A stretch of 64,000 bases of DNA from an uncultured Prevotellaceae bacterium (GTDB taxonomy: Bacteria > Bacteroidota > Bacteroidia > Bacteroidales > Bacteroidaceae): assembly GCA_946411565.1 (NCBI GenBank), contig CAMKEM010000002.1:62001-126000 (forward strand), given 5' to 3'. The notes below the pieces were generated by a model. That model did no database searches and was not told the DNA's origin. It worked only from the letters and a program-made list of their open reading frames with translations. This document shows, in pieces, positions 4,270-53,539 of the stretch. Within the stretch, counting starts at the first letter, position 1. Each line of letters begins with the position of its first letter. The position numbers and the translations under genes were made by a program.

Positions 4270-4320
4270 AGAGTAAAGGGTAAAGTGTAATGTAAAATGA
4301 TTATACGCAATTACACGACA

Positions 4321-4515
4321 GGCGGGCTGAAAGCCCAAAAGCACATAGCCCAGGGCATCGCCCTGGGAAAAACAGAGGGATAGCTAACGCCCTGTAAGGG
4401 CAAAAGCTCCAATCTGATGTAATGCTTTTGCCCTTACAGGGCGAAATTACCAACCGCCATTTACCTAGGGCGATGCCCTAGGCTATGAGCTTTTGCCCCT
4501 TCGGGGCGCTATCGA
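4321..4515. repeat. composite hairpin repeat, copy 1
   Basis: Three hairpin modules: GGGCTGAAAGCCC / GGGCATCGCCC; GCCCTGTAAGGGCAAAAGC...GCTTTTGCCCTTACAGGGC; CCTAGGGCGATGCCCTAGG; plus CCCCTTCGGGG. Homologous to 17768-17968 in inverted orientation. Confidence 0.85.
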
Positions 4516-4623
4516 GCGATTGCTGATAATCATTAATGCAAATCATAAACAATAACACGTTTCGCTCTTCAAACGAAGAAACAAAACAGGTAATTCGTAA
4601 CTCGTAATTCGTAATTAGTAATT

Positions 4624-14055: not shown

Positions 14056-14187
14056 AGTGAAAAGTGAATAGTGAAAAGTAAATAATACTTAATACAGGTG
14101 GACACCAGTATAAGTCTTTCGCTATACTTTCTGTTCGGCGATAGCAGTATTAGGTATTATTCACTATTCGTTATTCACTATTCACTT
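14056..14187. repeat. inverted array of AGTGAA words
   Basis: AGTGAAAAGTGAATAGTGAAAAGTAAATAATACTTAATAC...GTATTAGGTATTATTCACTATTCGTTATTCACTATTCACTT. Confidence 0.8.
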
Positions 14188-14385: not shown

Positions 14386-14880
14386 ATGTTAGAGATAGAA
14401 AGAAAATTCCTTGTAGCAAAGGACGAGTCTTTCAAGACAATGGCTTCCTCGCACTCACATATCCAACAAGGATATATGGCTTGCCAGGGAGCCACTGTTC
14501 GAATAAGATTACGTGACGAGAAGGCATACCTCACCATCAAAGGTCCTTCCCGCAATGGTGGTATGTCAAGATATGAATTTGAGCGCGAGATTCCAAAGGA
14601 AGATGCCCTTGAACTACTTAACCTATGCCGTGGTGGAGTGGTTGATAAAACCCGCTGGCTTGTGCCATTCGGCGGACACACCTTCGAGGTTGACGAGTTT
14701 CATGGAGCAAACGAAGGCCTTCTCTTTGCAGAAGTAGAACTAAAGGACGAGAATGAGGCATACGAGCGTCCTCCTTTCCTCGGTCCAGAAGTTACAGGCA
14801 ATCGCCATTTCTATAACTCGCACCTCCTCTCTGATCCATATCCTAACTGGAAACACGAACTCCCAGAGGAGTATCAGTAA
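14386..14880 (+). CDS. CYTH domain protein (triphosphate tunnel metalloenzyme family)
   Basis: MLEIERKFLV N-terminal EIERKF signature; RIRLRDEKAYLTIKG. Confidence 0.9.
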   Translation: MLEIERKFLVAKDESFKTMASSHSHIQQGYMACQGATVRIRLRDEKAYLTIKGPSRNGGMSRYEFEREIPKEDALELLNLCRGGVVDKTRWLVPFGGHTFEVDEFHGANEGLLFAEVELKDENEAYERPPFLGPEVTGNRHFYNSHLLSDPYPNWKHELPEEYQ

Positions 14881-14908
14881 CAAGTTTGAAAGATGCGCAC
14901 CTCTGGCG

Positions 14909-15163
14909 CTTTAACTGACAATAATTACCAATCTGCGCAATCTTTTCAATCATTATTTTTTATCAAGAATTTGAGAATTAGAGATTTTTCTTTTGAATCA
15001 TTGGAGAATTTGAGAAGAATCGCTTACGCTCCTGCAAATCACACCTATTCCTAATGCTACACAAGTAGCAAAATTCTCTCTTTCGCATTAATTAAATTTT
15101 CTCTAATTCTTGATGTTTTTATGGAAAAAGATTGCGTAGATTAGTAATTATTGTCAGTTAAAA
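14909..15163. repeat. ~255 bp long inverted repeat
   Basis: CTTTAACTGACAATAATTACCAATCTGCGCAATCTTTT (14909-14946) vs AAAAAGATTGCGTAGATTAGTAATTATTGTCAGTTAAAAG (15125-15163); nested ATCAAGAATT..AATTAGAGA / TCTCTAATTCTTGAT. Confidence 0.85.
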
Positions 15164-15299
15164 GCAACTTGTTGCTTACCATTAAATCGAAACTAACTAT
15201 TATCAATTCAAACACCGCAAGGTGCGTAATAATCTTTAAATTTTCTGGTCATCGTCGGAAATTTTCTTGAAAGCCTCAGCACCACAAGGTGCGTTTGTA

Positions 15300-15425
15300 G
15301 CAAGTCCGATGTAAGTCCGTTGCAAATCCGTTGTAAGTCCCATTCAGTTCCCATTCTATATATAGGCTTTGGAACGGTTTAGAAGCGGATTAGTAGCGAA
15401 TGAGAAGCGGACCTGAAGCAAATGA
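15300..15425. repeat. head-to-head 11-bp-period repeat array
   Basis: CAAGTCCGATG/TAAGTCCGTTG/CAAATCCGTTG/TAAGTCCCATT ... GGAACGGTTTA/GAAGCGGATTA/GTAGCGAATGA/GAAGCGGACCT. Confidence 0.8.
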
Positions 15426-15438
15426 AAAATATTTTTCG

Positions 15439-15650
15439 CGAGAGTTTTTAAAGAGGGGGGTGCACTTTTGCCTATTTTAGGGGTATAACATACTGGAAGT
15501 CAAGAGATAGCAAAGCGTGCACCCCCACCCTTGAAGTGTACCCCAGAAAAGGATTTTTAGGAGGGGGTGCACTCAACGTAAATCACTGATAGTCAGCAGG
15601 CAAAGGGATAAAATTAGGCAAAAGTGCACCCCCCTATCTAAAAACTCTCG
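15439..15650. repeat. nested inverted-repeat element A (212 bp)
   Basis: Outer arms CGAGAGTTTTTAAAGAGGGGGGTGCACTTTTGCCTATTTTA / TAAAATTAGGCAAAAGTGCACCCCCCTATCTAAAAACTCTCG; inner arms GTGCACCCCC / GGGGGTGCAC; CACTGATAGTCAGC at 15584-15597. Confidence 0.9.
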
Positions 15651-15676
15651 TATAAAATTTCATTAAAGTGAGAAAA

Positions 15677-15882
15677 GTTTTGAGGCTACACCGTTACACC
15701 TTTGCAGTTTTGAGTCAATTAACACATTGAAGCTTAGACATTTATCTTGGGTGCAACAGTACCGAAACTGTTACACCTTTTGGTGCAACGGTTTTGGTAC
15801 TGTTGCACCGCATCTAATTCATTGATAATCAGCCCAAATATACACTCATAACAGCAAAGGTGCAACGGTGTAGCCTCAAAAC
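15677..15882. repeat. nested inverted-repeat element B (206 bp)
   Basis: Outer arms GTTTTGAGGCTACACCGTTACACCTTTGC / GCAAAGGTGCAACGGTGTAGCCTCAAAAC; inner 60-bp palindrome 15750-15809; CATTGATAATCAGC at 15820-15833. Confidence 0.9.
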
Positions 15883-16054
15883 CTCCAGAATTTTATATAG
15901 TTTCACCCAGAGATTGCCAAATCAAGAGGTATTACACGCAATTTAATAACGTGACCTAAATGCTTGATTAGAACTGAAATTTTGCGATTTTGCAAAGTCT
16001 ATTTTGCAGAACAAAAGAAAATACTATATTTTTACAAATTTTTACTCATTTTTA

Positions 16055-16085
16055 TTTGTGTTAAGAAAGAAAATACCTATATTTG
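16055..16085 (+). promoter_or_regulatory. Bacteroidetes-type promoter
   Basis: TTTG (16055-16058), 19 bp spacer, TATATTTG (16078-16085). Confidence 0.75.
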
Positions 16086-16089
16086 CAAA

Positions 16090-16471
16090 GTCGTAACTAT
16101 TGCAAGTGGTTAGACTCTACATAATGAAAAAGCGTCATCGATGCTTTGTCTATTGGTCATTTGAAACCTGAGAAATTTCAAAATAAGAAATCAATGACAA
16201 TGTCAGAAGTGGCTGCTACGGGTATGGTATAACTATATCTCGGGGTGTGTAGTGAGGGTTATTCATCCTCATGCACACTTTCCCCCGAAGATATGTGCAA
16301 CTATATCAGCGTGGGCAGACTTTCTACTCGTCAATTTCTTAGGGTATTCTCAGGACCTCAAATGACGGACGAGCAGAAATGGATACCCACGTTTTTCGTT
16401 ATGTGGTAAACCATAATAACTAAACCAATAAACGCCTTAATAGGGTATCAGAAAGGCAATAATGGGCTATT
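16090..16471 (+). ncRNA. candidate structured leader RNA (or degenerate small gene)
   Basis: Hairpin 16235-16294 (ATATCT..CGGGG..GTGAGG / CCTCAT..CCCCG..AGATAT); second long stem CGTGGG..TTTCTACTCGTC (16310-16332) / GACGAGCAGAAA..CCCACG (16368-16391). Confidence 0.5.
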
Positions 16472-18247: not shown

Positions 18248-20641
18248 ATGAAAAAAGTATTACTAATTTTGTTAGCCGTGTTTTCATTTAACGCAGTTAA
18301 TGCGGAGATTACATGGAGTCTGTCAGATGATGGCACATTGACCATATCAGGAACAGATATGCCTTATTATTATTACAGTAGTGCTCCTTGGAACTCCCAA
18401 CGAGACAAAATCAAGAAAATCATAATAGAAAATGGAGTTACGAATATTGGAGCTGGGGCTTTCGAAGAATGTAAAAATCTCACATCAGTCACAATCCCTA
18501 ATTCCGTAACAAGTATTAATTATGATGCTTTCGACGGCTGTTCTGCTCTTACATCAATCACTATACCTAACTCTGTGACTAATATTGGAGGTGGATCTTT
18601 CGACGGTTGTTCTGGACTAACTGCAATCATAGTAGAAAAAGGAAATACAATATATGATAGCAGAGATAACTGCAATGCAATAATTGAGACAAATTCAAAC
18701 AGCTTGATTTTAGGGTGTAAGAATACCGTTATCCCTAACTCTGTGACAAATATTGAAGGTGGCGCTTTCAAAGATTGCTCTGAACTAACAACAATCATTA
18801 TACCTAATTCTGTGATGAGTATTGGAGGTGGAACTTTCTCTGGTTGCTCCAGACTAACAACAATCACTTTACCTAACTCCGTAACGAGTGTTGGAGAGTC
18901 GGTTTTCCGTGATTGTAATAATCTCACAGCAATCACTATACCTAATTCTGTAACAAATATTGGAAGTAGTGCTTTTGCAAGATGCACAAATCTTAAATCA
19001 ATCAATATCCCAGAGTCTGTGACGACTATTGGATCTGAAGCTTTCCTTGATTGCTCAGGACTAACAGCAATCACTATACCTAACTCTGTAACAGACATTG
19101 AAAGTAGGGCTTTTGAAGGATGTTCTAATCTCACAGCGATCACTATACCTGAGTCCGTAAAAAATATTGGATATGGAATTTTCTCTAATTGCTCTAATCT
19201 TACATCAATTACTGTAGAAAAAAGAAATTTCTATTATGATAGTAGGAATAATTGTAACGCAATAATAAAGACATATTCAAATACATTAATTGCAACGTGT
19301 AAGACTACCGTTATACCTAACTCTGTGACGAGTATTGAAGATGACGCTTTCAGAGCTTGCTCTGGTCTTACATCTATCACTATTCCTAACTCTGTGACAA
19401 GTATAGGATTTTATGCTTTCGTTGGTTGCTCTGATCTCAAATCAGTAACTATCCCTAATTCTGTTACATATATTGGATGGGGATCTTTTGCTAATTGCTC
19501 AAGTCTCACATCAATCACTATCCCAAACTCTGTGACGTCAATTGACCGAGAGGCCTTCTATGGATGCTCTGGTCTCACATCAATCGAGATCCCAGAGTCT
19601 GTTCTTTCTATTCAAGAAATGGCTTTTGCCAATTGCACTGGGCTTACATCAATCACCATCCCAGCTTCCGTATCGGGTTTTCATGATTATGTTTTCGCAG
19701 GTTGCACCGGTCTCAAATCTATTACTTGTGCATCAACCACCCCTCCAACTTGTCGGGATTACTGGAGTGGAGAACCTGCCTTATATTGCTTTGATTATGT
19801 AAACAAATCAATCCCTGTATATGTCCCTGCTAATAGCATCGATGAATACAAAAATGCTAATATATGGAAAGACTTTACCAATATACAAGCAATTCCTGAC
19901 ACTTATACTCTAACAGATGGTACACCATACGACAACTTTTTACAAGTTGATGGATGTGACATTTCCTATACTCGCACATTCAACAATACCTCTTGGCAGG
20001 CTCTCTATATTCCATTCTCTTTGAACTATGCCGATTGGAAGAATGATTTCGAAGTGGCTTATATCAATGGTATTCGCCAGCAGGACACAAATGATGATGG
20101 TGTTATTGATAAAACCATAATTGATGTTATAAAGATAAAGGAGGGTTCTCTTATTCCAAATACGCCTTATCTCATAAAGGCAAAGAAAAAGGGAACTAAA
20201 ACTCTTTCTGCGACAGGTGCAACTCTCTATGGGGCTAAGGTTAATAGCATAGATTGCTCTACTACACTTGCCAAATATACTTTCAAAGGCACATACAACA
20301 CAATTTCTGCTGCAACCTTGATAGACAACCAATATTATGCTATGGGTGGCGGCTCCCTCATTATGACCGATGGCACAAGTGACCTTAACCCATATCGTTG
20401 GTATATGAATATAGAGGCTCGCAGTCCGTTGTATAACGTAAGCAATACTGCAAAGACTATCGTATTTAATGTACTTGACGAAGAAGGTAATACGACTGGC
20501 ATCAATGAATCACGAATGATGAATGACGAACTACCTAACAACGAATCACCAGTTTACGATTTAAATGGTAGAAAGGTAAATGAGAAGACCTTAAAGCCAG
20601 GTATGTATATTAAGAATGGAAAGAAGTTTGTTGTAAAATAA
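18248..20641 (+). CDS. BspA-like leucine-rich repeat (LRR_5) surface protein
   Basis: Signal peptide; many ~23-aa repeats of the type LTSITIPNSVTSIGxxAFxGCSG; C-terminal VYDLNGRKVNEKTLKPGMYIKNGKKFVVK. Confidence 0.93.
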   Translation: MKKVLLILLAVFSFNAVNAEITWSLSDDGTLTISGTDMPYYYYSSAPWNSQRDKIKKIIIENGVTNIGAGAFEECKNLTSVTIPNSVTSINYDAFDGCSALTSITIPNSVTNIGGGSFDGCSGLTAIIVEKGNTIYDSRDNCNAIIETNSNSLILGCKNTVIPNSVTNIEGGAFKDCSELTTIIIPNSVMSIGGGTFSGCSRLTTITLPNSVTSVGESVFRDCNNLTAITIPNSVTNIGSSAFARCTNLKSINIPESVTTIGSEAFLDCSGLTAITIPNSVTDIESRAFEGCSNLTAITIPESVKNIGYGIFSNCSNLTSITVEKRNFYYDSRNNCNAIIKTYSNTLIATCKTTVIPNSVTSIEDDAFRACSGLTSITIPNSVTSIGFYAFVGCSDLKSVTIPNSVTYIGWGSFANCSSLTSITIPNSVTSIDREAFYGCSGLTSIEIPESVLSIQEMAFANCTGLTSITIPASVSGFHDYVFAGCTGLKSITCASTTPPTCRDYWSGEPALYCFDYVNKSIPVYVPANSIDEYKNANIWKDFTNIQAIPDTYTLTDGTPYDNFLQVDGCDISYTRTFNNTSWQALYIPFSLNYADWKNDFEVAYINGIRQQDTNDDGVIDKTIIDVIKIKEGSLIPNTPYLIKAKKKGTKTLSATGATLYGAKVNSIDCSTTLAKYTFKGTYNTISAATLIDNQYYAMGGGSLIMTDGTSDLNPYRWYMNIEARSPLYNVSNTAKTIVFNVLDEEGNTTGINESRMMNDELPNNESPVYDLNGRKVNEKTLKPGMYIKNGKKFVVK

Positions 20642-32487: not shown

Positions 32488-32872
32488 GTTTGTTTTATCA
32501 GCAAGTGATGATAAAAATTCTCTTAAAAGCTGAAATACAATAAAATACGATGTTTTAGCAGTAGTGCTTCCGCTATGCCCAAACCGGGTAAGAGACAGAA
32601 ATCATCAAAATTTACCTCTATAAGGTGTCGCTTGAGACTCGTAAAATCATCATTCCGATGCATTTTTCGGCATTTTCCTCTCGTTTACAAGGCAAAAAGT
32701 AATGTATTGCAAAAACCATTTCCTCGGTCTCAAAGGCAAAATCAACCACTTTTTCGGCTCATTTGGCGTAGAAACGAACCTTTTGAACAGGATTATTGAG
32801 ACTATTTGTCGCTAATTGTGTGCTCATGATGAGATTGAGATGCAGACACTATCCCTTTGTTATGCCTTCGCT

Positions 32873-33000
32873 TCAGGTCCGTTACAAGTCCGTTTCAAAA
32901 CCGTTTCAAGTCCGTTCCTAAGAATGGGAGAAAAATGGGATTTGGTAGGGATTTGCAAGGGAACTGCATAGGACTTGCATGGGGATTAAGGAAACGGATA
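32873..33000. repeat. head-to-head 11-bp-period repeat array
   Basis: CAGGTCCGTTA/CAAGTCCGTTT/CAAAACCGTTT/CAAGTCCGTTC then AAGAATGGGAG/AAAAATGGGAT/TTGGTAGGGAT/TTGCAAGGGAA/CTGCATAGGAC/TTGCATGGGGA. Confidence 0.85.
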
Positions 33001-38168: not shown

Positions 38169-38289
38169 AGTTAAGAGTGAAAAGTGAAGAGTGAAGAATT
38201 TAAGTTAGCAGTTATTGCAAAAGACAACATACTGTCCAAAACGGCAATACATACTTAAATTCTTCACTCTTCACTTTTCACTCTTAACT
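38169..38289. repeat. perfect 37-bp inverted repeat of AGTGAA words between convergent genes
   Basis: AGTTAAGAGTGAAAAGTGAAGAGTGAAGAATTTAAGT (38169-38205) / ACTTAAATTCTTCACTCTTCACTTTTCACTCTTAACT (38253-38289). Confidence 0.95.
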
Positions 38290-44002: not shown

Positions 44003-44202
44003 AAAAGTTTTTCGAAGGGGGTTACACCCACCCCCGATTTTTCGGTGTAATGCCTTGATATTCAGAGAACAAGAATGGGTGTAACCCCCTCTAAAAATCG
44101 ATATTGGTTTTAGATGGGGTTACACCCATTATAAGTTACTGATTATCAACGTCTAAAAACCGATTTTAGGCATATGGTGTAACCCCCTTCGCAAAAACTT
44201 TT
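44003..44202. repeat. nested inverted-repeat element C (200 bp)
   Basis: Outer arms AAAAGTTTTTCGAAGGGGGTTACACC / GGTGTAACCCCCTTCGCAAAAACTTTT; inner arms GGGTGTAACCCC / GGGGTTACACCC; TACTGATTATCAAC at 44137-44150. Confidence 0.9.
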
Positions 44203-44259
44203 ATTTTTTTCTTTTACCCATATTTCAACCTAACCTCTTCGCTCTCCATTCGTTCATCC

Positions 44260-53003: not shown

Positions 53004-53263
53004 TTCTACCTTATTTGCTAATTAATCTTGCAAAATTACGAAATAACTTGCAGAAAACAAAATATCCTAACATTTTTTGACATTACCCCCACCCAATCAT
53101 CATATCTAAGCACAAAAACAAACGCGAAAATGCTAAGACGCAGAGATGAATTTTGAACACGAAAATCACGAAACAAACGAAATTTATCTTTGTGATTTCC
53201 TCTCTCCCAATCCTCCCCTGTTCCTCTTCTCTTGCTCTTTTCATCTTCTTCTTGTCCGAAGTT

Positions 53264-53350
53264 ACTCCATCGCTACTCCATCGTTACTCCATCGTTACTA
53301 CATCGAAACGATGGACTATCGATGGATTATCGATGGATTACTGATGGATT
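53264..53350. repeat. head-to-head 11-bp-period repeat array
   Basis: GTTACTCCATC/GCTACTCCATC/GTTACTCCATC/GTTACTACATC then CGATGGACTAT/CGATGGATTAT/CGATGGATTAC/TGATGGATTAT. Confidence 0.85.
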
Positions 53351-53539
53351 ATCTTATGAAAAACTGCGGTATTTCAAGGGCAAGAAAAAATTCCTTGAAA
53401 AGCACGAATTTCATGATTTGCTTTTGCCTGATGAGTATTGGTAAATAACAATTTCTGTCAGTCGAAAACAGGTTGTTGACTTTTGCATAAAAACGGAAAA
53501 TTCTTGCCCGAAAACAAAAAAAACATAAAAATCAAAAAA

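Follow-up and report, generated by a model that had tools for sequence, protein, structure and literature searches.

Bacterial MITEs such as Correia/NEMIS and ERIC are short, non-coding and mostly intergenic, with terminal inverted repeats (TIRs), a terminal TA, target duplications (TSDs) and long stem-loops (PMC2229807). BIMEs are made of REP sequences in alternating orientation and occur with RAYT (PMC2817692). The available description of BrickBuilt, from Porphyromonas gingivalis, is of a species-restricted, intergenic minisatellite-MITE with small TIRs, in which 23-bp units lie between a leader and a tail (PMC4596501); nothing closer to an array joined to a palindrome was found in the literature searched. 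The locus described here lies in a 64,000-nucleotide stretch of an uncultured Prevotellaceae genome, G000 (the window, meaning the whole stretch analysed). It is very probably a hotspot in which at least two families of mobile elements, non-coding and palindromic, have accumulated between a CYTH-domain gene and the next genes, as judged mainly from this one locus compared among five species.

No ORF of at least 60 aa is found from the CYTH end (14880) to 16472, where three small ORFs without known identity begin to the right of the island; the gene-free gap in the window is 14881-16100. Self-inverted alignment of the island gives a best score of 86 and a next of 33, against a chance maximum of 25 over 60 dinucleotide shuffles, which bears out the initial annotation of a 1-kb non-coding island of inverted repeats. 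The 255-bp inverted repeat that it placed at 14909-15163 is recovered as arms 14910-14946 and 15126-15162 (37 nt, 95% complementary), and its 11-bp array at 15300-15425 is found with a start at 15297. Its adjacent inverted repeats A and B are likewise present, A with arms 15431-15478 and 15611-15658 (48 nt, 88%), B with arms 15677-15715 and 15844-15882 (39 nt, 92%) and an inner inverted repeat at 15750-15809. Measured against its own shuffles, each block folds strongly, with z-scores of -10.5 for E1, -8.8 for A and -15.2 for B (array in Table 1). An Rfam search of the island returned no family at its gathering score; a mir-559 match, which scores 30 bits where the cut-off is 95, is just the hairpin of B. 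The analysis drew on a 457-kb sample of the genome and on targeted stretches, and every block of the island has copies dispersed elsewhere in the genome.

Table 1. Features of the island and a related element elsewhere in the window
Feature	Position	Strand	Evidence
CYTH-domain gene, left border of the island	14386-14880	+	Pfam CYTH, E=4.8e-16
E1, degenerate MITE copy	14880-15200	+	Inner arms, family alignment, end-profile matches
hp1	15195-15227	-	Alignment with the E1 right end still kept in sister G111
hp2 with upstream ATTTTCTGGTCATCGT repeat	15236-15296		~20 genome copies, several followed by a hairpin of E1 type and an outer TIR
Palindromic array, 11-bp units	15297-15425		TRF and lag-11 scan; fold z -3.6
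FB element, subfamily A, core GTGYACCCC x5	15431-15658		Arms, family alignment, core count, fold
FB element, subfamily B, core GGTGYAACRGT x6	15665-15894		Arms, family alignment, core count, fold
FB element, subfamily C, core GGTGTAACCCC x4, elsewhere in window	44003-44209		Family alignment, core count

A genome search with 14881-15300 gives 126 matches, a figure that includes both strands of the same palindromes and copies of hp2. Aligned E1 copies have a common layout: an outer arm (TTAACGTGAGTTCGAYGAATT), hairpin a (variants include GCATCTCCGATGC and GCACCTTTGGTGC), and an inner stem (TGAACTGACAATAATTACCAATC...); beyond a spacer the stem returns, followed by hairpin b (variants include AACAGCTTGCTGTT) and a second outer arm. 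Inner spans cluster near 100-112, 198-214 and 253-273 bp, and whole copies measure 134-327 bp end to end. The copies are non-coding, all sampled ones are intergenic, and their neighbour genes stand in tandem, divergent and convergent arrangements. Double changes leave the pairing of both hairpins intact (18 cells, 4 pairs). Young copies bear terminal inverted repeats ACGTGAGTTCGAYGAATT...AATTCRTCGAACTSACGT, and 12 of 17 intact copies, from four species, have TSDs of 6-7 bp of the form TANN(N)TA (TAAATA, TAATTA, TATTTA, TATGTTA, TAATTTA and TATCCTA). Ends resembling the E1 TIR number 223 in G000 and 300 in sister species G111, against 1 each in the reversed control. The duplications at intact copies identify E1 as a MITE, and together with the TIRs, nesting, dispersal and presence/absence they show that it forms a MITE family. 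The window copy is an old one, with worn TIRs and outer arms and no readable TSD; its end-profile matches lie at 14880-14947 and 15120-15188, and its outer limits, set by eye against TAACGTGAGTTCGA, are approximate.

One E1 copy in G000 is 99% identical to a G111 copy over 178 bp, the match being bounded by the element, whereas the CYTH region is 88% identical between the two genomes, implying that movement was recent or across species. Another G111 match, a partial one, reaches 100%. A second locus holds E1 in G000 but lacks it in G111, G232 and G342, a solo hairpin b remaining in G111. A third locus (L090), where the flanks differ in G071, provides no clean E1 empty site. Of 399 genomes sampled from the genus, 7 contain E1 and 5 contain FB subfamily D, described below, in searches that scored the best candidates per genome only and may miss weak members. 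E1 resembles Correia/NEMIS and ERIC in being short, non-coding and intergenic, with TIRs, TA termini, TSDs and long stem-loops; unlike them, it has two covarying side hairpins inside its arms and a 6-7 bp TANN(N)TA target, lives in an unrelated host lineage and lacks a known parent. For the E1 family, with its ACGTGAGTTCGA ends, no autonomous parent or transposase was found, a pattern search with the ends giving no transposase-sized pair among the matches listed, in contigs that often end in such repeats. Three layers are seen at locus L088, where an E1 sits inside another inverted repeat that is itself within an older E1.

Two short hairpins noted between E1 and the array are present, hp1 with its stem-loop at 15213-15227 (CACCGCAAGGTGCGT) and hp2 at 15280-15294 (CACCACAAGGTGCGT), about 3 bp upstream of the place first given. 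Rather than separate blocks, they appear to be remnants of E1-type ends. Because hp1 aligns with the still complete E1 right end in G111, it is read as the remnant of a hairpin-a end from an older, oppositely oriented E1. hp2 is part of a further repeat (ATTTTCTGGTCATCGT...) and, judging from the copies that continue into E1-type sequence (Table 1), appears to be the end-hairpin of an E1-related element. Solo hairpins look like scars of palindrome loss.

Elements A, B and C can be aligned in one register, and D elements taken from elsewhere fall into it too. Their frame, of about 215 bp, reads AAAAGTTTTTGAGG-core-CTTTGC...inner palindrome...CTGATAATCAG...GCAAAGG-core-CCTCAAAAACTTTT, with the cores of subfamilies A, B and C as in Table 1 and GGTGTAATA in D, of which G000 has about 18 copies. 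Across 42 element rows, in which a few loci are listed twice, each element bears the ~9-bp core of its own subfamily alone, 4-9 times and in alternating orientation. Nearly all core occurrences in the 457-kb sample lie within FB elements (approximately 13/13 for A, 6/7 for B, 4/4 for C and 12/14 for D). The first and second cores, as well as the third and fourth, are 58-60 bp apart in the elements whose positions were read. Both A and B have terminal inverted repeats and are dispersed. These results show that the two belong to one dispersed FB family with one frame and exchangeable ~9-bp cores, and dispersal plus presence/absence suggests that the family is mobile. For FB too, whose ends may be of the GGTGYAA type, neither a transposase nor an autonomous parent came to light. 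Like BIMEs, FB elements are intergenic and carry a short word in alternating orientation; unlike BIMEs, they have a fixed 58-60 bp spacing, a common frame with swapped words and no linked RAYT. No report of FB core exchange was found in the literature searched, the coverage of which is incomplete, and BrickBuilt, compared by its available description, differs from FB in that no core exchange is reported there. D elements at L179, L199 and L200 adjoin another FB-like subfamily, whose core is GGTTTCACC.

The array consists of imperfect 11-bp units, TCCGTTGTAAG-like in the left arm and AAGCGGANNAG-like in the right. In the 457-kb sample there are 34 lag-11 arrays, compared with 0-7 at lags 8-10, 12 and 13; lag 14 gives 15, owing to another repeat. 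Most lag-11 arrays are palindromic, their unit word differing from array to array. Further examples in the window lie at 1986-2048, 32864-32984 and 53249-53362, with about 30 others in the sample. Of 25 D elements, 18 are accompanied by an array, always on the same side, and none of the 25 has one on the opposite side; the background frequency in intergenic stretches is 8.6% (p ~1e-14 for the D side, a value that is too small, because the 25 include orthologous loci). An array lies directly to the left of five of the six A copies, and the sixth keeps an array tail. Given this placement at both D and A, array plus FB is a recurrent composite. As far as BrickBuilt is described in the source available, the two have in common the bacterial order, an intergenic location, the joining of a tandem array with a MITE and restriction to a species or a few; here, however, 11-bp palindromic arrays adjoin a distinct palindromic element on one of its flanks. 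Membership of the island array in BrickBuilt was rejected on its unit of 11 rather than 23 bp.

The same locus was compared block by block in five species, the window species and G111, G232, G071 and G342, among which CYTH is 85-88% identical. In G111 the locus holds E1 in the opposite orientation, a hairpin, the array and A, and lacks B; nested within the stem of this E1 is another, complete copy with TSD TAATTA, and the opposite orientation may reflect an inversion or a separate insertion. In G232 a hairpin and the array come right after the CYTH stop, followed by A and then downstream sequence, again without B; the genomes are draft assemblies, some with contigs ending in repeats, and the G232 contig is split at A. 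G071 has a solo hairpin, the array and C in the place of A, B being absent here, and on another contig C followed by B. In G342 the array stands alone. Block content thus differs among all five species, which argues for an insertion and loss hotspot and against one conserved transcript with a single fold. The array is nearly constant, following CYTH in 5/5 species. The suggestion of a repeat insertion hotspot is borne out by blocks that are copied elsewhere in the genome and that come and go at the orthologous site in four sisters. The accompanying idea that the blocks were gained independently stands, with a qualification for the array and its adjacent A, which recur together and are only partly independent.

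We propose that E1 and FB would be moved in trans by transposases, for which the element ends, and perhaps the FB core too, are predicted binding sites. Insertions could accumulate here because the gap would hold nothing essential and earlier insertions would supply TA-rich targets; slippage between short repeats may remove palindromes, with solo hairpins left behind. A host function need not be invoked for the island. What had been an unexplained "junk" island becomes a readable history, with two apparently undescribed palindromic element families, one of them clearly mobile, in a small species group. A further, tentative possibility is that FB and the array together form a composite non-coding element of a new kind. 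Its fixed palindromic frame would carry an interchangeable ~9-bp recognition word at set spacing and in alternating orientation and would bear an 11-bp-phased palindromic tail, and the element would co-evolve with a DNA-binding or transposase partner that has itself diversified. The word-swapping FB family and the array that accompanies it offer a direct test of set-wise change in transposon or binding-site specificity, and also of why 11-bp palindromic arrays abound in these genomes.

FB and array might instead be a functional host element, architectural or regulatory for example, that selection maintains, and not a mobile parasite; its core would then be bound by a DNA-binding protein that has diversified. 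Several sites common to different species would fit such a role, as would the fixed side of the array at D and cores that are almost confined to FB, keep their spacing and change together at all positions. We nevertheless consider it unlikely, since E1 and D are limited to 5-7 of the 399 sampled species, presence varies at orthologous sites and the gene context shows no preference.

It is less probable still that the island is one conserved structured non-coding RNA or a CYTH 3' UTR with a single fold. The strong folding of all blocks, the double changes in hairpins a and b and the constant array after CYTH would agree with it, but blocks have been gained, lost, inverted or exchanged independently while CYTH stayed 85-88% identical, copies occupy tandem, divergent and convergent gaps, no Rfam match is present, and a terminator scan gave nothing above chance. 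A terminator or promoter role for the elements is unsupported by that scan and by the orientations of neighbouring genes.

REP/REPIN or IS200/IS605-type elements, recognised by their hairpins and moved by Y1 (RAYT) transposases, are a very improbable source of the island: the E1 inner stem is flanked by hairpins and the genome has two Y1 transposase genes, but both genes are bordered by other palindromes (GCCCTGAAAGGGC type, others) and not by E1 or FB, and E1 makes target duplications whereas Y1 elements make none. RAYT/REPIN, a first guess for the E1 hairpins, was dropped on the Y1 flanks and the TSDs, and the TSDs also rule out an IS200/IS605-derived origin of E1. A cluster of GCCCTGAAAGGGC / AGCCCAGGGCATCGCCCTGGG palindromes, the type that flanks the Y1 gene G000:C5:24691-25035, lies at 4296-4534 of the window, and these palindromes and the Y1 gene are likely a REP-RAYT pair. 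Elsewhere in the window, 38169-38289 holds a perfect 37-bp inverted repeat of AGTGAAAAGTGAAG-like units, with relatives at 14056-14187 and perhaps 62073, and 18248-20641 encodes a leucine-rich repeat protein of the BspA type, its coding sequence containing long 69-bp repeats.
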